NCBI RefSeq assembly: GCF_017642925.1
Contig: NZ_JAEPOL010000004.1
Coordinates: 124,001-188,000, forward strand
Direction: 5' to 3'
Length of the DNA: 64,000 bases
From: Maricaulis sp.
Lineage (GTDB): Bacteria > Pseudomonadota > Alphaproteobacteria > Caulobacterales > Maricaulaceae
Position 1 is the stretch's first letter, and the number at the start of each line of letters is the position of its first letter. Position numbers and translations under genes: made by a program. Shown here one piece after another: positions 53,083-63,984 of this stretch. The notes beneath the pieces are model-generated. The model saw only the letters and a list, made by a program, of their open reading frames with translations. It was not told the DNA's origin and did no database searches.

Positions 53083-56000
53083 ATGAAACGTCAGTTGTTG
53101 AGCGGTGCGGCTGCGACCGCGCTCGTCATGTCTTCCGCCATCTTCAGCCAAGGTGCCCTGGCCCAGGAAACGGCCAGCCAGGGCCCGGTCCAGGCGATGG
53201 GTGGGGACATCAATCCTTTTGGTGGCGACATCAACCCGTTCGGCGGGGACATCAATCCCTTTGGCGGCGACATCAACCCGTTCGGCGGGGACATCAATCC
53301 CTTTGGCGGCGACATCAATCCGTTCGGCGGGGACATCAATCCCTTTGGCGGCGACATCAACCCGTTCGGAGGGGACATCAATCCCTTTGGTGGCGACATC
53401 AACCCGTTCCAGGCTGCGCAGAGCCCGTACTACGGTTTCGTCAGCCCGTTCTGGGGGAATGTGAAGCCCTATTGGGGTGACATCAATCCCTTTGGCGGCG
53501 ACATCAATCCGTTCGGCGGGGACATCAATCCCTTTGGTGGCGATATCAACCCCTTCGGCGGGGACATCAATCCGTTCTGGGGTGACCTCTCGACCGTGGG
53601 CGGCGACATCAATCCCTTTGGTGGCGACATCAATCCGTTCTGGGAAACCGCCGGCGGTGTCTGGGGTGTGATGAATCTCGGCTGGGACCAGATCGATCCG
53701 GAAACCGGCGACTACCAGCCGATCGCCGACGGTCTCAATCTGATCTTCGACGAGGCGGAAAACGTCTTCGGCGAGGCCATCCAGAGCGCGACCGGAAAGT
53801 CGATGAACGAGGCTTTCCTCAACGCGCTGCTCGACGATTTCGGCATCGATCCGGCCGATCCGGCCTCTCTGGCGAGCATGGATGCCGCCGACCGGTCCGA
53901 GTTCTTCCTGACCTTCTACGACAATCTGATGTCCTATACCGGTATCGACCATGTCGATCACTGGATGGCCGCAACCAACTGGTACCCGGCGCTGTCGCAG
54001 ATGTATGGCGGCGGCGATCGCGTCCGCGTCGGCCTGATGGATTTCTCCACGCGGTCCGGCGACGGTTATTTCCAGCTCAGCCAGGGCGATTTCGGCTCGC
54101 GTGACTTCCATCACGGCGCCGCGGTCCGCAGCCTGATCAACGCACCGCTCGACGGCACCGGCGTGATGGGTGTTGCCCAGAATGCCGACCTGATCTCCTT
54201 CGACCCGTATGACGACACCCAGACCACCGACTGGGGCACGGTCGAGCTGGGCATGAGCTATCTCGCCCTGATGCAGACGGACATCGTCAACCTATCGATG
54301 GGCGTATCCGGCTGGACGCTGGCGCCGGAGTGGGAGCGTATCTTCACGAGCCCCTTCGTGCGCCTGTTCGGCGACGACACGCTCTTCGTGCTGGCCGCCG
54401 GCAATGACGGCGCTGCCCAGACGGTCGATGTGGACTGGACCGGCGTCAACGCCGTCGACAATCTTCTGATTGTCGGTTCCGTCGATCCGGGCGGCCATAT
54501 CTCCAGCTTCTCCAACCGTCCGGGCGATGCCTGCCTGACGGTGCGGGGCAGTTGCCAGCCCGGCCATCGCCTGATGGATCGTTTCCTGGTCGCTCCGGGC
54601 GAGCTGATCCTGGTCGATGATGGCGATGGCGGTGTGGTCCGCGTGTCCGGCACGTCCTTCGCCGCACCGCTCGTTTCCGGCGCCGCCGCGCTGGTCAAGG
54701 GGCATTGGGGCTGGCTGGAAGGCGCCGACCTTGCCGATGTCCTGCTGCAATCCGCCACCGATCTGGGCGATGAGGGTGTCGACGCCGTCTACGGCCACGG
54801 CCTTCTGAATGTGGCCGGTGCCATGGCGCCCATCGATGCCGGCGATCTCTATGTCATCGACCGCCGCGGCCGCCAGGTTTCCGCCAGCGACGTGATGATC
54901 GATGGCGGCCGCCTGCGTTTCCGCTACGGTTCCAGCGACACCGTCGTGCTGTTCGAGAACGTCAACGACACCTTCCGCGACTTCGAGATTTCGGTGGACG
55001 CGCTGACGGCGGGCTCCAGCCTGTCCGACAATGTCTCGAGCATCTATGCCGAGACCTATATCTACGAGCGCACCACCGGCAGCTCGGGTGCCAGCTTCAC
55101 CGATGCCGGCATGATGGACCGTCCGGTCCTGCGCCGCGGCAATCTGGAAGTCACCGCCTTTGCCGGTGCCACCGATCTGCAGGGCCGCGGCCTGTCGCGC
55201 GAGCTGGGCTTCCAGACCGGTCTGCGCTTTGCCGACCGCAGCACCGGCCGCGACGTCATGCTGGGCGTTGGCGAAGGGGCGCTCGCCCTGACAGGGAATG
55301 ACGGGTTCGGCCTGTTCTCGGATCATCGTCCGGAAACCGGCGGCGTAAACCCTGTCCTCGGCTTCGCATCGGGCGGTATCTTCGCCGCCAGCGGTTTCCA
55401 GCTCTCCGAACGGACGCGCCTGACGGTCGGTTCAACCATGAACCAGGAAGAGCGGACCTACCTCATCCCCGGCACGGGCGAGGAGCGGCCGCTGCATGAC
55501 GGTCTGGATGCCTATCAGGCGATGGCGCTTAACGTGGCGATCGAACACCGTCTGACGGATACGACCACCCTGCATGGTGCCGTGACGCAGCTGCACGAGA
55601 GCACCGGCCTTCTGGGGGCCCAGGGCACCGGACCGCTCGACTTCTCCGGCGGTGCCGACACCAGCGCCTTCTCGATGGGTGTGGACACCGCGCTTACGCC
55701 GCGCCTGCGGCTGAGCGCTTCGACCACGGCCGCCGTGACCCGTCAGACCGCGTTCGACAGCGGCCTGCTGGACCTTGACGACAATATCGTCTCGACCGCG
55801 GCGCAGATGAGCATCCAGTATTCCGGCATCGCCGGTGAGGCCGACGCCGTCCGCGTCAGCCTGATGCAGCCGCTGCATGTGGAGACGGGTTCCCTGCGTT
55901 ACACGGCGGCCCGTGTGACCGACCGGGAGACCGGAGCGCTGGGCTTTGACAGCCAGGTCTGGGAACTGGGCGGCGAGCGTCCGCTCTATACCGAATTCCT

Positions 56001-56130
56001 GTATTCCACGCCGCTGCCCGGCATCCTGGGCGAAGCCAGCCTGTTCGCCCGCCAGCAGGTCGCCGGCAATGCCTTCGACCGGGCCCGGAACGATCTGGCC
56101 GCCGGCGCCAGCTTCCGCATGCGTTTCTAG
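53083..56130 (+). CDS. S8 subtilisin-like autotransporter with heptapeptide repeats
   Basis: About 1015 residues. A signal peptide (KRQLLSGAAATALVMSSAIF) ends near ALAQ. From about residue 40 to 186 the chain is an unbroken array of 21 heptapeptides, 17 of them GGDINPF or WGDINPF. The S8 domain follows (about 290-590) with Asp320 (GLMDFS), His344 (HHGAAV), AAGND and Ser525 (GTSFAAP), so the triad is intact. The C-terminal 300 residues look like a beta-barrel and end in FRMRF, as in autotransporters. It is likely an outer-membrane or cell-surface protease. An ATG at 53077 is an alternative start. Confidence 0.85.
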   Translation: MKRQLLSGAAATALVMSSAIFSQGALAQETASQGPVQAMGGDINPFGGDINPFGGDINPFGGDINPFGGDINPFGGDINPFGGDINPFGGDINPFGGDINPFGGDINPFQAAQSPYYGFVSPFWGNVKPYWGDINPFGGDINPFGGDINPFGGDINPFGGDINPFWGDLSTVGGDINPFGGDINPFWETAGGVWGVMNLGWDQIDPETGDYQPIADGLNLIFDEAENVFGEAIQSATGKSMNEAFLNALLDDFGIDPADPASLASMDAADRSEFFLTFYDNLMSYTGIDHVDHWMAATNWYPALSQMYGGGDRVRVGLMDFSTRSGDGYFQLSQGDFGSRDFHHGAAVRSLINAPLDGTGVMGVAQNADLISFDPYDDTQTTDWGTVELGMSYLALMQTDIVNLSMGVSGWTLAPEWERIFTSPFVRLFGDDTLFVLAAGNDGAAQTVDVDWTGVNAVDNLLIVGSVDPGGHISSFSNRPGDACLTVRGSCQPGHRLMDRFLVAPGELILVDDGDGGVVRVSGTSFAAPLVSGAAALVKGHWGWLEGADLADVLLQSATDLGDEGVDAVYGHGLLNVAGAMAPIDAGDLYVIDRRGRQVSASDVMIDGGRLRFRYGSSDTVVLFENVNDTFRDFEISVDALTAGSSLSDNVSSIYAETYIYERTTGSSGASFTDAGMMDRPVLRRGNLEVTAFAGATDLQGRGLSRELGFQTGLRFADRSTGRDVMLGVGEGALALTGNDGFGLFSDHRPETGGVNPVLGFASGGIFAASGFQLSERTRLTVGSTMNQEERTYLIPGTGEERPLHDGLDAYQAMALNVAIEHRLTDTTTLHGAVTQLHESTGLLGAQGTGPLDFSGGADTSAFSMGVDTALTPRLRLSASTTAAVTRQTAFDSGLLDLDDNIVSTAAQMSIQYSGIAGEADAVRVSLMQPLHVETGSLRYTAARVTDRETGALGFDSQVWELGGERPLYTEFLYSTPLPGILGEASLFARQQVAGNAFDRARNDLAAGASFRMRF
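53200..53640 (+). repeat. 21 x 21-base coding tandem repeat (GGDINPF array)
   Basis: The first ten units (53200-53409) are nearly identical. Units eleven to thirteen are degenerate (QAAQSPY, YGFVSPF, WGNVKPY). Unit fourteen is WGDINPF, four exact units follow, then WGDLSTV, and two exact units close the array. At DNA level the first units alternate between two codon spellings (GGGGACATCAATCC... and GGCGACATCAA...CCG), giving a higher 42-base period. Confidence 0.95.
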
Positions 56131-56178
56131 AGACGGCCTCCGCCCACCGGCGGACGTGATTTGCAATACAAATCAAGG

Positions 56179-56204
56179 CCCTTTCGCAATCGCGAAGGGG
56201 TTTT
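56179..56204 (+). terminator. Terminator after the S8 autotransporter
   Basis: CCCTTTCGC (56179-56187) pairs with GCGAAGGGG (56192-56200), with one G-U pair, followed by TTTT. Confidence 0.75.
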
Positions 56205-56275
56205 GGTTTATATTAACTTGCATGCCCTAACTTCCGGCGTGGTGGACCTGCCGAGTTGGGGAGGCAAGTGAGTCA

Positions 56276-58876
56276 ATGCAGCGGCTAATCCTGGCGATGG
56301 CGGGCGTGTGTCTGCTGCTCGGGGCAGTGTGCGGACCTGCGTTCGGTCATATCCGCACGGACGATGTGCCGCCGGCAAACAGCTATCGTCAGGCCGTTGA
56401 ATCGGCCCAGGCGGTCATGATGGCCTCGCCGCAGGAAGCGCTCGAACGCGCCCGCACGGCCGAAGCCTTGATCCCCACCATCACCGATTTCACCGATCCG
56501 GCGACGGCCCAGGCAACGGTCTGGTGGCTCCAGGCCGAAGCCCTTCTGCGCCTGGCCCGGTTCGAGGACGCCCTGCCCGTCGCCGAACGCGCGCTCGAGG
56601 CGCTGGGCCAGAACCCGCCCAGCAGCAAACTTCACGCGGATATCCTCACCGCGCTCGGCCGCATCAACAAGATGCTGGGCGGCCATGGCGAGGCGCTGGA
56701 AAACTACCAGAATGCCTATGACATCTACCGCGATATCGGCGAGCCGCGCAGCGAATCCATCACCCTGCAGGGCATTGCCTCGCTCTATACCGATGCGCGC
56801 CAGTACGAGCGCGCGGTCGAGTATTTCCGTCACGCCCTGGAACGCTATCAGGACCCGGCGCTCGGCCTGTCGGCCAACAATAATATCGCCAATGCGCTGA
56901 CCCAGCTGGAACGTTACGACGAGGCGGAACTGGCCTTCGAAGCGGCGCTGACCCTCGCGCGCGACATGGAGAGCGCGTCGCTGGAGGCCCGCATCCTCGA
57001 AAACCTGGCGATCATGCAGACCGAGGCCGGGCATTATGACGATGCCACCGCCAGTATCGACCTGGCCTTCGAACGTGTCAGCGACATGCCGGATCTGGAG
57101 TGGACACGCTTCTTCTGGGGCGTGCGTTCCGAGATCGCCTATGCGCGCGGCGACATCTCGACCGCGATCGACCACATGGAACGCGTGTTCGAAGGACGCG
57201 ACCTGACCACGACCACGCAGGCCTACATCACCTATCACGAGATGGCGGCCCAGCTGTATGAGTCCGAAGGCGACTGGCGTCAGGCGATGGCGCATCTGCG
57301 CGCTTTCAAGCGCCTCGATGACGACCGCGCGGAATTCGCCGCCTCCGCCAATACGGCCCTGATCAATGCGCAGTTCGACTTCGCCATCCAGGAAATGGAA
57401 ATCGACCGGCTGCGGATCGAAGGCCTGCAGCGCGAGCTCGCCCTGCAGAGCTCGCGGGCCAGCCAGCGCGTGATCGTCGCGACCGCGGCACTGGCCCTGG
57501 TGCTGATGCTGCTGATCGTCGCCGTTGTACGCCAGCGCTCGGCCAAGGAGCGCGCCCGCATCCTGGCCCGCACGCTGTACGAGGATTCCCAGACCGGCCT
57601 GCCGTCGCGCGCCGCGCTCGAGCGCAGCCTGGAAGAGCGGGCCGTGCGTTCGGACGTGCCGCCGAATGTCATCGCCCTGCAGCTCAATCGCCGCAAGCAT
57701 CTGGAGAGCGTGCTGGGCTTTGGCAAATTCGCCGAGATCCAGGCCCGCATGGCCGCCCGCCTGCGCGAGATCGAACCGGTCGACACGGTCTACAGCATCT
57801 CGCCCGGCATGCTGGGCATTCTGGCGACCTGCCGTACGGCCGACGACGCACTGGCGCTGGCCCGTGCCTGTGTGGAACGGCTGGCCGAGCCCGTCCGGAT
57901 TGCAGACCTGGATATCGATGTCTCCGTCCGCGGCGGTGTCGGGATCGGCGACGATCCGGAATTGTGCATCCGCCACGCCACGATCGCCGTGCACCAGGCG
58001 CAGCAGCATCGCGAGGCCGCAGCCCTGTTCGACGCCGGCCAGTACGGCGATCCGTCGCGCAATCTCACCCTGATGACCCGCATGCTCCAGGCGACCCGGT
58101 CGGGCGATATGAGCATGCACTACCAGCCCAAGCTCAACCTGCGCACCGGCCGCTACCAGTCCGCCGAAGCGCTGTGCCGCTGGTTCGATCCGCAGCAGGG
58201 CTTCATTCCGCCGGCGGCCTTTATCCACCAGGCCGAGGAGATGGGGCATATCCGCGCGCTCACCGAATGGGCCATCCAGCGGGTGATCGACGACCAGCGC
58301 CGCTTTGCCGAAGCCGGTCACGATATCTGCATTGCGACCAATATTTCCGGCGCGCTCGTCTGCGATACCGACTTCGTCAATATCGCCCTCGACCTGATCA
58401 GGACCGCCGCCGGCCGGATCACGTTCGAGATCACGGAAACCGCCGTGATGGACGATCCGGAACTGGCCATCGCCAACCTCAATCGCATCAACGAGGCGGG
58501 CGTGCGGCTGTCGATCGACGATTATGGTTCGGGCCTGTCCTCGCTGGCCTATCTGCGCACACTGCCGGCGCGCGAGCTGAAGCTCGACCGGGCCTTCGTG
58601 CAGCATGTGGCGACCTCTGAACGCGACCGCATGGTGGTGAAGTCCACCGTCGACCTCGCGCACAATCTGGGTCTCGACCTCGTCGCCGAAGGTGTCGAAG
58701 ACGAAGCCGGCCTGGCGATCGTGAAACTGCTGGGCTGCGACTGGGCGCAGGGCTTCGGCCTGTCCAAGCCGCTGCCGGTGCCGGAACTGGTGGCCTTCCT
58801 CGACGCGGCCAAGGCGGCGGGAGCCGTCAACCTGCCGGCCCCCACCTTCACCCCGCGCCAGATCGGCACGCGTTAG
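56276..58876 (+). CDS. TPR/EAL cyclic-di-GMP phosphodiesterase, membrane bound
   Basis: An 866-residue protein with a signal peptide (LILAMAGVCLLLGAVCGPAFG), then about 350 residues of TPR-like helices (EALENYQNAYDIYRDIGE, RAVEYFRHALERY, EAELAFEAALTLARDM), a membrane helix near 400-422, a degenerate GGDEF-like domain without the GGDEF motif, and a complete EAL domain: MHYQPKLNLRTG with SAEALCRW near residue 631, NISGAL, FEITETAVMDD, SIDDYGSGLSSLAYL with ELKLDRAFV, and VAEGVED. It should hydrolyse c-di-GMP, with periplasmic TPRs sensing some partner. Confidence 0.9.
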   Translation: MQRLILAMAGVCLLLGAVCGPAFGHIRTDDVPPANSYRQAVESAQAVMMASPQEALERARTAEALIPTITDFTDPATAQATVWWLQAEALLRLARFEDALPVAERALEALGQNPPSSKLHADILTALGRINKMLGGHGEALENYQNAYDIYRDIGEPRSESITLQGIASLYTDARQYERAVEYFRHALERYQDPALGLSANNNIANALTQLERYDEAELAFEAALTLARDMESASLEARILENLAIMQTEAGHYDDATASIDLAFERVSDMPDLEWTRFFWGVRSEIAYARGDISTAIDHMERVFEGRDLTTTTQAYITYHEMAAQLYESEGDWRQAMAHLRAFKRLDDDRAEFAASANTALINAQFDFAIQEMEIDRLRIEGLQRELALQSSRASQRVIVATAALALVLMLLIVAVVRQRSAKERARILARTLYEDSQTGLPSRAALERSLEERAVRSDVPPNVIALQLNRRKHLESVLGFGKFAEIQARMAARLREIEPVDTVYSISPGMLGILATCRTADDALALARACVERLAEPVRIADLDIDVSVRGGVGIGDDPELCIRHATIAVHQAQQHREAAALFDAGQYGDPSRNLTLMTRMLQATRSGDMSMHYQPKLNLRTGRYQSAEALCRWFDPQQGFIPPAAFIHQAEEMGHIRALTEWAIQRVIDDQRRFAEAGHDICIATNISGALVCDTDFVNIALDLIRTAAGRITFEITETAVMDDPELAIANLNRINEAGVRLSIDDYGSGLSSLAYLRTLPARELKLDRAFVQHVATSERDRMVVKSTVDLAHNLGLDLVAEGVEDEAGLAIVKLLGCDWAQGFGLSKPLPVPELVAFLDAAKAAGAVNLPAPTFTPRQIGTR

Positions 58877-60961
58877 TTACGCACCGTCGTCCTCGTCATC
58901 GGGATCGACCGGTAGGGGCTGCCACTCATAGGCCTCGCGTCCCAGATGCCGGGCATACCAGTCCAGTTCGGCATTGATGCGGAACAGGCGGTGCGACAGG
59001 TCCGAGAAGGAATGCCCCTCGCCCGGCGCCAGGTAGAGCCGCGTCTCGACACCCAGATTGCGCAGCGCCTGGTAGAGCATGATCGATTGTGACGGGTGCA
59101 CCCGTTCGTCATCCTCACCGGCAAAGATCAGGGTCGGTGTGGTGACGCGGTAGAGATCCCGCAACAGGGATTGCGGCTGGAACACGGTTTCCAGCGCCCC
59201 CTCGGCCCAGGCATCGGCTCCGAACAGCAGACGGCGCGCCTGGCGGGTATCGCTGGTGAGGTGGTGCACCGCCCAGTCGACAGCCCCGGCCCCGGACGAG
59301 GCTGCACGGAAACGGTCGGTCGTGGTGATCAGCCGGTTGGTCATGTGACCGCCGGCGCTCCAGCCCGACATGATCAGCTGATCCGGATCGGCACGCCCCG
59401 TCTCGACGAGATAATCGACCCCGCTCATCACATCGCGGTCGGCATGGGCGAAATAGGTGCCGTGCATGGCCTGCATGAAGGCATCGCCATAGCCGGTGCC
59501 GCCGCGATAATTCACCCACAGCACGCCATAGCCCTGCCCCGTCATGACCGGCACATAGCGGCCCCATTTCCACATGCCGAACTCGTCGGCCGAACGCGGC
59601 CCGCCATGGGCCTGCACCACCAGCGGCGGCGGACCGTCGCCGGTATGGACCAGCGGCGGGAAGTAGAAACCCTCGATCACCTGGCCGTCATGACTGTTCC
59701 AGCGGATCAGCTGCTGCTCGGGCAGGTGATAGGGCGCGACGATGGCCGCGCCGATCGTCGTCAGGCGGGTTTCCGCACCGTCGGCCGTGATCCGCCAGAG
59801 ATCGCCATTCGTCGCCGGCGTTTCGAACAGGGCGACGGCATTGCCCGCCGCATCCAGCGACCAGTCGGCCAGGTGCCGGTCGTGCAGCGACAGCGCCGTC
59901 ACCTCGCCGCTTTCCGCATCGATCCGCACCAGGCCGGAGCGCACACCGGCCTGCACCGCCATGACCAGGGTCTCGCCATCGGGCAGCCAGGCCATGCCGT
60001 CGACTTCGAAATCGAACCCCTCGGTCAGGATCCGGCTCTCATTGGTCTCCAGATCGATGACGACGAGATTGTTCTGCACATAGTCGAGCCCGGCGCCGCT
60101 GACGCGGGCCTTGTAGGCAATCCGCCGGCCATCGGGCGACAGGCGGGCATTGCTTTCCATCCAGTTGTTGGCGGTGATGCGGCGGAACTGGCCGCCCGGT
60201 TCGGGCGTCTCGCTGATCCAGAGTTCGCTGTCATAGGCGGAGTCCAGATCGGCGGCCGGCGCGATGCGGATCAGCACGGCACCGCTGGCGGCGACATCAT
60301 AGCTGCGCACCGACCAGTCGCCCTGCGTCATGCGCTGGCGCGCACCGCTGTCCACATCGACCCGCCAGAGATGACGGTGACGCGTGGTCTCGAAATAGGG
60401 CTCGATCAGCTCGACCCGGTCACGCCGGTCGCGCTGCTCGTCGCTGAGATCGTCGGTCGCCAGGTAGTAGATGAACTGCCCGTCCGGCGACCAGGACATG
60501 CTCTGCACAGCGGTGGGGTGGCGGGTCAGCCGGCGCAGATCGCTGCCATCGGCATTGGCCAGGAAGACCTCGTCTTCCTTGCGCCCCTCCGGCGGCTGGT
60601 CCGCCGCCAGCATCCGGCCATCGGGCGAGAAGGCCACCGTATCCGCTTCGTCGAAGCCGGACAGATAGCTCAGCTGGCCGGAGGCGATATCGAGAACCCA
60701 GTAACGGTCGGCGCGTTCGTCCTCGGCCCAGTCGGCATGGGTCATTGTGACAATGGCGCGCTGACCGTCATCGGCCAGCGAGACTTCGCTGATATGGCGA
60801 AGCGCCACCATCTCGACCGGTGTCATATACCGGTCGGCCGCCGGGATTTCCGGCCGGGCTGCGAGCGTTGCAGGCAGCGGGTCTTCGGCGAAGGCCGGGT
60901 GCAGGGATGCGCTCGCAGCCAGCATCGCGGCCACGGCGGAAAAAGCAAAATGACGGAACAT
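58877..60961 (-). CDS. S9 family prolyl oligopeptidase-like peptidase
   Basis: A 694-residue exported peptidase with a signal peptide (FRHFAFSAVAAMLAASASLHPAFA). The N-terminal two thirds are a WD40-like beta propeller (VAFSPDGRMLAAD, SMSWSPDGQFIYYLAT, MAWLPDGETLVMAV). The C-terminal alpha/beta hydrolase has the nucleophile GWSAGG, the acid FAGEDDERV and the His in GEGHSFSD. It cleaves short peptides. The TonB-dependent receptor gene stands 119 bases upstream on the same strand, so the two may be expressed together. Confidence 0.92.
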   Translation of the reverse strand: MFRHFAFSAVAAMLAASASLHPAFAEDPLPATLAARPEIPAADRYMTPVEMVALRHISEVSLADDGQRAIVTMTHADWAEDERADRYWVLDIASGQLSYLSGFDEADTVAFSPDGRMLAADQPPEGRKEDEVFLANADGSDLRRLTRHPTAVQSMSWSPDGQFIYYLATDDLSDEQRDRRDRVELIEPYFETTRHRHLWRVDVDSGARQRMTQGDWSVRSYDVAASGAVLIRIAPAADLDSAYDSELWISETPEPGGQFRRITANNWMESNARLSPDGRRIAYKARVSGAGLDYVQNNLVVIDLETNESRILTEGFDFEVDGMAWLPDGETLVMAVQAGVRSGLVRIDAESGEVTALSLHDRHLADWSLDAAGNAVALFETPATNGDLWRITADGAETRLTTIGAAIVAPYHLPEQQLIRWNSHDGQVIEGFYFPPLVHTGDGPPPLVVQAHGGPRSADEFGMWKWGRYVPVMTGQGYGVLWVNYRGGTGYGDAFMQAMHGTYFAHADRDVMSGVDYLVETGRADPDQLIMSGWSAGGHMTNRLITTTDRFRAASSGAGAVDWAVHHLTSDTRQARRLLFGADAWAEGALETVFQPQSLLRDLYRVTTPTLIFAGEDDERVHPSQSIMLYQALRNLGVETRLYLAPGEGHSFSDLSHRLFRINAELDWYARHLGREAYEWQPLPVDPDDEDDGA

Positions 60962-61080: not shown

Positions 61081-63984
61081 CTAGAAGCGGGAGCGGACAC
61101 CGACGTAGAACTGGCGTCCGATCGGATCGTTCTGCGGACCCTTCAGGTTGGACGTGCTGCCCGAGTTGAAATTGCTCGGCAGGAAGGTGCCGTAATCGTC
61201 GAACAGATTGTTGATGCCGGCATAGACCGTGGTGCGGTAATCGTCACCGAAGCGGTAGCGGGCATAAATGTTCGACACGAAGCGGTCGTCGGCCTCGAAG
61301 TAGTAGGCATCGCTGGGATCCACATCGAGATCGTCGATGCCGCCGGACTCGTACTTCAGCGTATAGCTGGCGTAGAAGTCGCCGCGGCGCCAGGACAGGC
61401 GTGCCCGGGCTTCGTGGGTCGGATCGTACATGGAACCGTTGGAGTCCTCGCGGACCGGCGTACCGGCTTCACCGATGAACTCGTACTCGTCGGCCAGAGA
61501 ACGCGAATAGCGCAGGTCGAGACCGAACTCGCCCGGCACCGACTGGACCTCGAAATCCCACATCACGGAGACATCGATACCTTCGGACAGCAGCTCGTTG
61601 AGGTTTTCCTGGCGGTTGATCACCTCGATCACCCGGCCATTCGACGTGTCGCGCGTGACGACATCGCAGAAACGGTTGTCCGGGAAGTTCGGCGAGCCAT
61701 AGCACAGGTCGACCGTGGTCTGCGTCGAGACCGAGCCGATCGCGTCTTCCACCTTGATATTGTAGTAATCGACGATGAAGACGAGATCTTCAGCGAAGGA
61801 CGGCGCCCACACGGCACCGATGGTGAAGGTGTCGGCGGTTTCCTCGGTCAGCGTGTTGTTGCCGGCATTCGGCGCATTCACCGAACCGTCGAACTCGAAG
61901 GCTTCGCCCGCATTGTCCGGATCGTTGAAGAAGGCCTGGATACCCGGCTGGGACAGGCAGTTGGCGGCGATCACGGACGGATCGAAATCGGTGCCCGGCG
62001 GGGAGGTGACACCCGAACCGTCCGGCATCAGGCCATCACACGGATCGCGCAGATCGTCGGCGTCCTGACGCGGTGCCGAGTAGAATTCGGTGATCGTGGG
62101 TGCGCGTTGCGAACGCGAATACTGCGTACGGAAACGCAGCGTATCGGTCGGTTCCCAGTAGCCGCCCACATTGTAGGACGAGATCGTGCCGATCGTGGAA
62201 TAGTCGGCCACCCGCGCGGCAAGCTGTGCCGTAACGTTTTCCAGCACCGGGATCTCGACCTCGGCAAACGCCTCGACCACATCGAAGCTGGCTTCGATTT
62301 CCGGGATCACCGACAGGCTGGTGGTCTCTTCCAGGATAATGGCGTCGACATTCGTGTCCTGGGTCTCTTCGCGCCATTCCAGACCGAAGGCGGCGGACAC
62401 CGCACCGGCGGGGGCCTCGAACAGCTCGCCATTCATCGAGCCGCCGATCACGGTCTGCTCGCGGATCTGCTGCACATGGCCGTCGATACGGATGTAGTCG
62501 GCCATTTCCGGCGTGATCGAACCCTCACCGAAAATGTTCAGCGGGATACAACCATCGGCACGGGCACCGGCATCGGCACACTGATAGCCGCCGGCACCAT
62601 CGGACTCGACATCCAGCGCATAGTGGATGTTGAGGTAGTTCAGGTTATTGCCCTGGATCTGGTTCTGCTCGAACCGGCCATAGGTGGCAAAGGCGTTCCA
62701 CTGCCAGGTTTCACCCAGCTCGCCCGTCAGACCGGTGGCAAAGCGCATCGTCTCGCGCTCGTTGTCACGGGTTTCCTGACCCACTTCAACGAAGCGGCGG
62801 TACCAGCTCACCGAACCGGACCGCGTCTCTTCGACGGCTGCCGGGATAAAGGGGTTGCTGCTGGAGATCTGGCCGATATCGAACGTATTGCCGATCGGGC
62901 CGATATCCGTCGAATAGATCGCGGACTCGTAGGACCCTTCATACAGGCTGTCGACGCGCGACCAGAGCAGATCGGCAAACACCTCGATGCGCGGCGTCAG
63001 CTCGTAGCGGCCACGGGCCGCGGCGGTGTAAGCCGTGACTTCCGGGGACAGGGTGCGTCCGGGGCGGTAGTTCCAGCCGTCCAGCTCGGTCTCGAAGCCG
63101 ATGGCCGGATCGCGGCCATCGTCCGGTGCCAGCGATTTGTCATTGTACCAGACGCCGTCGACATTCCAGGCATCGTCGCTCTCGAAACGGCCACCCGGAA
63201 TGTAGGAGGTCAGCGAGTAGTCATTGTACTCGCCATTGCCGGACCAGTCGTCGGTGCGCAGGGAATCGGGACGGGTCGAGTCGGCATAGACCGCTGTCTC
63301 ATGGTCATAGCTCAGTGCCACCATGATATTGCCGCGGTCATTGTCGAAATTACGGCCCATGGTCAGTTCGAGCGTGCTTTCCTCTTCACCGCTCGCATCG
63401 GCCCAGCCATAGCGGGCTTCGACCTCGACGCCTTCCATATTGCGCTCGAGGATGATGTTGGCCACGCCGGCAATGGCGTCAGAACCGTAGATCGCCGAGG
63501 CGCCGCCGGTGGTGACTTCGATGGAGTCCACGAAACCGGCCGGAATGGTCTGCAGGCTGACACGTTCGCCATTGCCCGAGTTCGACACGGCGCGGCGGCC
63601 ATCGATCAGGACCAGCGTCCGCTCGGAGCCGAGGCCCCGCAGATTGATGGTCGAGAGACCGGAATTCTGGATGCTCAGATCGGTGCTTTCCGGCGACAGG
63701 CTGGAATCGACGCCCGGGATATCAACCAGGATTTCGCCGACATCCACCGTGCCGGACTCGTCGATATCGTCCGTCGTGAAGATCTGTGTCGGGATCGCCG
63801 TGTTCGCGTTGGAGCGGCGGATGCGCGAGCCGGTGACCACGATCGTGTCTTCGCTGGACGCTTGCGGATCGGCCGCAGTGTCCTGCGCGACAGCGGCGCC
63901 GCCGAGCAGCATGGCAGCAGCGGACACACCACCCATCAGCATGGCCCGGCCCGTGGTCCATGCGGTTCGATTACCCAAACTCAT
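61081..63984 (-). CDS. TonB-dependent outer membrane receptor
   Basis: A 967-residue receptor with a long signal peptide (SLGNRTAWTTGRAMLMGG then AAAMLLGGAAVAQ). The plug has DTIVVTGSRIRRSNANTAIPTQIF, INLRGLGSERTLVLIDGRRA and VTTGGASAIYGSDAIAGVANII. The barrel is complete and ends VGVRSRF. AAGGGG lies just before the start, near the window edge. With the S9 peptidase downstream, peptide uptake is the most likely role, but the substrate is not shown. Confidence 0.92.
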   Translation of the reverse strand: MSLGNRTAWTTGRAMLMGGVSAAAMLLGGAAVAQDTAADPQASSEDTIVVTGSRIRRSNANTAIPTQIFTTDDIDESGTVDVGEILVDIPGVDSSLSPESTDLSIQNSGLSTINLRGLGSERTLVLIDGRRAVSNSGNGERVSLQTIPAGFVDSIEVTTGGASAIYGSDAIAGVANIILERNMEGVEVEARYGWADASGEEESTLELTMGRNFDNDRGNIMVALSYDHETAVYADSTRPDSLRTDDWSGNGEYNDYSLTSYIPGGRFESDDAWNVDGVWYNDKSLAPDDGRDPAIGFETELDGWNYRPGRTLSPEVTAYTAAARGRYELTPRIEVFADLLWSRVDSLYEGSYESAIYSTDIGPIGNTFDIGQISSSNPFIPAAVEETRSGSVSWYRRFVEVGQETRDNERETMRFATGLTGELGETWQWNAFATYGRFEQNQIQGNNLNYLNIHYALDVESDGAGGYQCADAGARADGCIPLNIFGEGSITPEMADYIRIDGHVQQIREQTVIGGSMNGELFEAPAGAVSAAFGLEWREETQDTNVDAIILEETTSLSVIPEIEASFDVVEAFAEVEIPVLENVTAQLAARVADYSTIGTISSYNVGGYWEPTDTLRFRTQYSRSQRAPTITEFYSAPRQDADDLRDPCDGLMPDGSGVTSPPGTDFDPSVIAANCLSQPGIQAFFNDPDNAGEAFEFDGSVNAPNAGNNTLTEETADTFTIGAVWAPSFAEDLVFIVDYYNIKVEDAIGSVSTQTTVDLCYGSPNFPDNRFCDVVTRDTSNGRVIEVINRQENLNELLSEGIDVSVMWDFEVQSVPGEFGLDLRYSRSLADEYEFIGEAGTPVREDSNGSMYDPTHEARARLSWRRGDFYASYTLKYESGGIDDLDVDPSDAYYFEADDRFVSNIYARYRFGDDYRTTVYAGINNLFDDYGTFLPSNFNSGSTSNLKGPQNDPIGRQFYVGVRSRF

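Follow-up and report, generated by a model that had tools for sequence, protein, structure and literature searches.

What does a secreted subtilisin-like (S8) protease do with 21 tandem seven-residue units placed ahead of its catalytic domain? The question is raised by a gene at positions 53083 to 56130 of a 64,000-nucleotide stretch of DNA from Maricaulis sp. (contig NZ_JAEPOL010000004.1, positions 124,001 to 188,000), which we call the window. The adjoining gene, which the initial annotation of the protease did not mention, encodes a putative receptor with a tetratricopeptide repeat (TPR) domain. We see about an even chance that the heptad array serves as a ligand made of tandem peptides, probably released by proteolysis, and that it sets cyclic di-GMP (c-di-GMP) or kinase output via the TPR domain. 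Taken in parts, we consider a multivalent receptor ligand the most likely role of the array, and its release by the attached subtilisin likely.

The protease and its heptad array

The protease gene encodes the following parts, numbered by amino acid (aa).

53083 to 56130, + strand: secreted S8 protease P0001 with an N-terminal heptad array and a barrel-like C-terminus, 1015 aa
53083 to 53166, + strand: signal peptide, about aa 1-28 (MKRQ...GALAQ), read by eye, with a presumed cleavage site
53200 to 53640, + strand: array of 21 heptads, aa 40-186, of which 16 are exactly GGDINPF
53431 to 53493, + strand: three-unit core YGFVSPF-WGNVKPY-WGDINPF
53695 to 53997, + strand: helical domain, aa about 205-305, between array and protease
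54010 to 54852, + strand: S8 catalytic domain (D320, H344, N441, S525)
55108 to 56127, + strand: predicted outer-membrane barrel, aa 676-1015, last residue Phe (low-confidence model; no Pfam match)

The protein matches PF00082 (Peptidase_S8) at aa 339-573 (E 7.6e-27). The Asp-His-Ser triad (D320, H344, S525) and N441 lie within the expected motifs and are invariant in an alignment of seven sequences, which bears out the intact triad described initially. The anatomy given in the initial annotation, i.e., an S8 domain joined to an N-terminal array and a predicted C-terminal barrel, was also right, with the barrel resting on a low-confidence AlphaFold2 model. In that model the C-terminal region resembles porins (best E 2.4e-4) and the AaaA autotransporter (1.1e-3); it has no Pfam match at E up to 10.

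The array fills 147 aa with exactly 21 in-register heptads. It had been described as 21 GGDINPF heptads, and the number and register stand, but only 16 of the 21 units have exactly that sequence; one is WGDINPF, and four are divergent (QAAQSPY, YGFVSPF, WGNVKPY and WGDLSTV). GGDINPF occurred 0 times in 2000 shuffles of the window protein, and in the window's genome our repeat profile (A2) matches only this gene. Tandem Repeats Finder scores a 42-base period at 400 versus 341 for a 21-base period, and synonymous codons alternate (GGG/GGC, CCC/CCG, TTT/TTC) across much of the array; the DNA has therefore mostly duplicated two heptads together. Codon identity between units at lags of 1, 2, 3 and 4 is 0.44, 0.71, 0.46 and 0.70, which likewise means growth mainly by 42-base duplications. 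Unit number varies among relatives. A near-identical relative, a Maricaulis metagenome-assembled genome (MAG; locus L002), has a protease region that is 97.7% identical and 28 units versus 21 in the window, and the overall range is 6 to 55 in-register units, contig-cut arrays included.

The receptor gene beside the protease

The features at the 3' side of the protease gene are these.

56131 to 56275, + strand: gap between protease and receptor genes, 145 bases
56276 to 58876, + strand: receptor gene, encoding a signal peptide, TPR domain, transmembrane helix, degenerate GGDEF domain and EAL domain
56348 to 57445, + strand: TPR sensor domain, aa about 25-390, probably periplasmic
57470 to 57532, + strand: transmembrane helix, about aa 399-419, predicted by hydropathy
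58085 to 58771, + strand: EAL domain, aa 604-832, E 4.6e-62

A consensus scan of the 145-base gap found no terminator-like site. In the EAL domain, the motifs EALCRW, ITETA, DDYGSG, ELKLDR and AEGVED are all there. The motif GG[DE]EF was not found anywhere in the receptor protein. TPR domains commonly bind short linear peptides. By sequence, the solved TPR chains nearest to the window's TPR domain are those of PINS/LGN (best E 5e-10), which bind linear peptides.

Conservation of the gene pair and exchange of output domains

We scanned 62 repeat-protease loci (6 from named records and 56 further ones) for the TPR part of the receptor. In 54 of these loci, the gene immediately downstream, on the same strand, encodes the TPR receptor in an operon-like arrangement, and in 4 more the receptor is nearby. 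It should be considered that, among the 54, L123 duplicates L003, the receptor in L166 follows a broken S8 frame, and the gap in L169 is 692 bases. The linkage spans Maricaulis, Erythrobacter, Qipengyuania and other genomes of the order and class, with TPR identity down to 28%.

Output domains were scanned in 55 receptors, namely that of the window and 54 of the 57 others found (L123, L140 and L148 were left out). All 55 have TPR_12 (PF13424); the remaining domains are HisKA plus HATPase (29), EAL (26), receiver (15) and GGDEF (12). Judging by these matches, the TPR sensor stays while the output swaps between EAL and histidine kinase. A separate EAL gene, 39.9-49.4% identical to the EAL part of the window receptor, lies upstream of the protease in eight loci (L135, L137, L138, L142, L143, L145-L147), and the Maricaulis receptor looks like a fusion of such module parts. 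In L211, L213, L214, L216-L218, L220-L222, L225, L226 and L230, the TPR kinase is followed by a single-domain receiver (about 118-130 aa), perhaps its cognate response regulator.

Co-occurrence of repeats and receptor is near-complete. Among 137 genomes of the window's own family, 27 have the protease, and all 27 have the receptor, which is found in 30 genomes in total; the additional three are G091, where repeats lie at contig ends, G094 and G131. At one locus in each of these 27 genomes, less than 0.4 kb separates the protease match from the TPR match; the exception is a second protease copy in G003 (L129). Among 200 genomes of the order, 34 have repeats, and the receptor occurs in the same 34 and in G821, i.e., in 1 of 166 repeat-less genomes. 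In family f15 (199 genomes), repeats occur in 17 genomes and the receptor in those 17 and 12 more (12 of 182 repeat-less genomes). Because they match in size and handles, we took the paired repeat and receptor draws to be the same genomes. The order draw includes own-family genomes again, which means that the sets are not independent. Profile A2 also matched 5 of 385 genomes of the class, and in another class draw, in which at most two candidates were scored per genome, protease relatives were found in 2 of 289 genomes, with the window's own counted. We take f15 to be a sphingomonad family, given that its loci can be aligned at the DNA level with Erythrobacter records (best 73% over 5.4 kb, L133 with L006).

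On the other side of the receptor in the window are an S9 peptidase gene, with a weak likeness to lasso isopeptidases, and an adjoining TonB-dependent receptor gene (58877-60961 and 61081-63984, - strand). A link to lasso peptides was dropped: the isopeptidase match is below the cut-off, and within the compared stretches the S9 neighbour occurs only in the near-identical L002. As a neighbour of the module, TonB gave one match (L121).

Small secreted repeat proteins without a protease

In four genomes, the place of the protease before the receptor is occupied by a gene for a small protein with a signal peptide and 5-11 tandem units. All four of these mini-genes sit between an EAL gene and a TPR-kinase gene. 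They encode 76 aa with five YEQIRP[VI]xPx units in G627 (L215:5819-6049), 76 aa with five YETIRPV units in G874, and 143 aa with eleven YDDIRPV units in G872; the mini-gene of G678 has 198 codons and at least six YGDIIPL units (L219:5496-6092). No S8 match was found within 13 kb near the G627 and G678 mini-genes, nor within 6.4 and 15 kb near those of G874 and G872, and no whole-genome search was aimed at S8. In the two genera concerned, the receptor occurs in 7 of 7 and 4 of 4 genomes, and mini-genes in 3 of 7 and 1 of 4. As a control, we collected all frames in which a 5-mer occurs at least 4 times from 104 loci that overlap in part (1.23 Mb). These comprised 58 S8 rows, 6 rows that belong to the 4 mini-genes, 2 broken S8 arrays and a single frame of 48 aa. 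Because the mini-genes replace the protease before the receptor in four genomes, the repeat, rather than the protease, seems to be the constant partner of the TPR sensor, while protease and output vary.

These proteins bear on two other explanations. The array might act by contact and without release: as a periplasmic N-terminal extension of an outer-membrane protein, it would touch the inner-membrane TPR receptor and report export or assembly, in the way that TonB-dependent transducers touch FecR-type regulators. The N-terminal position of the array, the predicted barrel, the membrane helix of the adjacent receptor and the wide range of array lengths given above would all suit such an arrangement. 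However, the mini-proteins (76 to 198 aa) show no barrel, with two consisting of a signal peptide and 5 repeats and one of a signal peptide and 11 repeats, and we consider sensing by contact rather improbable. The second explanation is an adhesive or structural surface stalk whose expression the receptor merely regulates. Regular aromatic repeats and the difference in copy number from the MAG relative are compatible with a stalk, which the initial annotation had also suggested, but no structure was predicted for the array (both models were poor; see below), and a mere stalk leaves both the linked receptor and the small secreted repeat proteins beside it unexplained. We therefore think there is little chance that the array is only a stalk.

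Repeat sequences across lineages

Relatives with similar repeats are present in Maricaulis, Erythrobacter and Qipengyuania records and in other genomes of the order and class, in keeping with the initial annotation, which mentioned similar repeats in related S8 proteins. The 61 arrays compared comprise 795 units, and in many lineages the unit has become homogenised in a form of its own, e.g., GGDINPF (window), YGDIGPF, WGNLDSF, YGNLDAF, YGIIRPF, WGSVSPF and YGRINPF, and some have alternating 14-residue pairs (WGEIYAF-DGKAAPN, TGYIRAF-GGGIDPQ). Position 2 is Gly in 786 units, position 4 is Ile, Leu or Val in 758, and position 7 is Phe in 728. Entropies at positions 2, 4, 6 and 7 are biased, as these are part of the seed pattern, and positions 1, 3 and 5 are free. 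At position 3, 541 of the 795 units have Asp, but the predominant units of other lineages have K, R, I, Y, Q or T there.

Within the window's own family, 25 of 26 arrays contain a core in which two WG units follow one YG unit (YGxIxPF-WG..-WG..), which in 8 of the 26 is strictly YGDISPF-WGDISPF-WGDINPF. The window's divergent middle units YGFVSPF-WGNVKPY, together with WGDINPF, are by their sequence this own-family core. Of 398 units from relatives, 351 begin with W, Y, H or R, which makes Gly at position 1 the exception.

The array of locus L099/L168 (G864) has 55 units, with WGEIYAF alternating with a Pro-containing partner, and its frame is broken (546 and 528 aa); the TPR kinase of G864 is elsewhere in the genome and adjoins an EAL gene (L230). 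The short repeat frames L097, L098, L102 and L103 run off contig edges, and L099 and L101 are broken frames. In L045 (G260), there is an 84-aa frame with four WGDLS units and no S8 in that frame.

A calcium-dependent solenoid had also been suggested, and the window units, which are rich in Gly, Asp and Asn, would suit one. RTX repeats have the form GGxGxDxUx. A passage in PMC3034196 describes RTX units as typically calcium-binding nonapeptides. The window array resembles them in having short, Gly/Asp-rich tandem units, but the nonapeptide form is absent: its period is 7, not 9, the Asp at position 3 is replaced in other lineages, and neither strands nor any other secondary structure were predicted for the array. 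The solenoid is thus unsupported, and we regard an RTX-type fold as very improbable.

Structure prediction

AlphaFold2 gave a mean predicted local distance difference test (pLDDT) score of 40 for the whole protease (7 rows) and 37 for the array plus helical domain (19 rows). The array had no secondary structure, with block means of pLDDT of 24-33, compared with 53-71 for the next domain. Because even the protease scored low, the predicted coil is weak evidence about the array. A search of the repeat profile against PDB sequences gave only chance-like matches (Lpp, E 0.018).

Weighing the proposed mechanism

According to our proposal, the protease would be exported with the array at its N-terminus, and the array would then be cut free or into peptides, most likely by the S8 domain of the protease during maturation. 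Self-cleavage of the array, one of the three functions suggested in the initial annotation, would be part of this mechanism. The TPR domain would recognise the pattern x-x-x-[ILV]-x-[PA]-[FLV], and binding would alter the cytoplasmic output, i.e., c-di-GMP hydrolysis by EAL in Maricaulis and a histidine kinase in many relatives. The periplasmic location of the TPR domain, the binding, the release and the direction of the signal are steps that we infer.

Several observations weigh against this mechanism. Eight of the 62 loci deviate from the downstream, same-strand arrangement. The receptor is on the other strand beside the protease in L135 and L140, and upstream in L148 and, farther out (L209), in L138. 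No receptor was found nearby in L129, L149 and L168, and L160 reaches a contig end; in the genomes of L168 and L160, a receptor occurs at another place or on a different contig. L129 is a second heptad protease in G003, with no TPR match in its 20-kb stretch. It is also important to consider that common ancestry, in addition to function, contributes to linkage and co-occurrence, and that the Fisher values for the association of repeats and receptor ignore kinship.

Some receptors appear to be without a partner. For 8 of the 12 receptor-only genomes of f15, and for G821, G094 and G131, no repeat gene was found nearby in scans that did not each include every locus. The same was true of the extra receptor copies in G525, G688 and G864, and of G873, G875 and G876, where about 1.5 kb was covered. 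Such receptors may have other inputs or may have lost their ligand. As to other f15 receptor-only genomes, the locus in G530 begins at a contig edge, and in G617 an S8 protein with 30 YGFIIPV units, missed by the repeat profile, lies beside the receptor. Second S8 copies with 32-44 heptads of the LHIDPL type ([DSE][LM]H[IL]DPL) occur in three genomes of one genus (L227, L228 and L229), each with a TPR hybrid kinase downstream; like the array in G617, they speak for the proposed pairing.

Covariation tests, the last of these points, used 49 pairs (of 57, 6 were skipped for having too few core units and 2 were near-duplicates). With the domains taken separately, heptad positions 3 and 5 showed no link to the TPR domain. 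Position 1 correlated modestly with it (0.24, p 0.010), but no more strongly than with the helical domain (0.26). Positions 4, 6 and 7 gave a partial r of 0.00 with the catalytic domain versus 0.51 with the helical domain. In this control, the mean was substituted for 97 helical-domain distances that were undefined; the tests covered several sets of positions and made no correction for kinship. Moreover, the Val found at position 7 in some lineages is a poor P1 residue for subtilisin.

These results also concern the possibility that the array is a propeptide or decoy substrate of its own protease, while the receptor senses other products of the protease, e.g., cleaved envelope proteins. The array does lie N-terminal to S8, where propeptides lie, and its hydrophobic position 4, Pro or Ala at position 6 and Phe at position 7 resemble the P4, P2 and P1 residues of a good subtilisin substrate such as AAPF. 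However, these positions do not covary with the catalytic domain, and four genomes have repeats beside the receptor with no protease gene there, so we judge a propeptide or decoy to be unlikely. The more specific idea that positions 4, 6 and 7 correspond to P4, P2 and P1 seemed to be supported by a first partial Mantel test, but the separate-domain control moved the signal, and we did not use it as evidence.

Comparison with known systems

Among the matches listed in the open-licence PMC literature, none describes this repeat or gene pair. The closest analogy to a tandem peptide ligand read by a TPR domain is the RRNPPA family of Bacillota (e.g., Rap-Phr and PlcR-PapR). RRNPPA receptors are soluble and cytoplasmic, with a helix-turn-helix or Rap 3-helix domain. 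PMC11343458 describes secreted propeptides, some with several peptide copies, that extracellular proteases cut into peptides that bind TPR receptors, and a title cited there names subtilisin, Epr and Vpr as makers of CSF. Our system is similar in having a TPR receptor (PF13424 in 55 of 55) and neighbouring secreted tandem repeats, in the form of arrays and the four mini-genes. It differs in that a signal peptide precedes the TPR domain, which a membrane helix connects to EAL or a histidine kinase, rather than being part of a soluble cytoplasmic receptor; in addition, the repeats either belong to a subtilisin-barrel protein or are secreted on their own, and the hosts are Alphaproteobacteria. 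By analogy, the window system may work like RRNPPA.

Two other systems share single components. Type Va autotransporters have a C-terminal 12-strand beta-domain (PF03797). Like the S8 autotransporter EprS, the window protein has a signal peptide, S8 and a barrel-like C-terminus, although its score against the NCBIfam EprS model is 23.9 bits versus a cut-off of 1700; unlike EprS-type proteins, it has an N-terminal tandem array, a helical domain before S8 and a linked receptor, and it lacks a Pfam autotransporter match. LapD is an inner-membrane protein with degenerate GGDEF and EAL domains and a LapD_MoxY periplasmic domain that is linked to the extracytoplasmic protease LapG and controls surface adhesins. 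The cytoplasmic part of the window receptor matches NCBIfam LapD below the cut-off (89.6 versus 1020 bits), but its EAL motifs look intact, its sensor is TPR, and its protease is S8 rather than LapG. No Pfam match to LapD_MoxY was found in the receptor at E up to 1e-3.

Implications

With the receptor identified, an orphan repeat becomes one side of a ligand-receptor pair that can be tested and that occurs in dozens of alphaproteobacterial genomes, and the small repeat-only precursors suit tests with synthetic peptides. As a broader and more tentative idea, which we hold with less than even confidence, these genes could constitute a form of peptide signalling in Gram-negative bacteria, in which lineage-specific tandem peptides are carried on a self-processing surface subtilisin or on small secreted precursors, released, and read by periplasmic TPR receptors whose c-di-GMP and histidine-kinase outputs are interchangeable. 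If this is true, TPR-peptide communication, as described in Bacillota, would extend to Gram-negative membrane receptors and would be tied to c-di-GMP, a frequent regulator of the change from a swimming to an attached way of life and back. The homogenised repeats would then keep each lineage's signal private.

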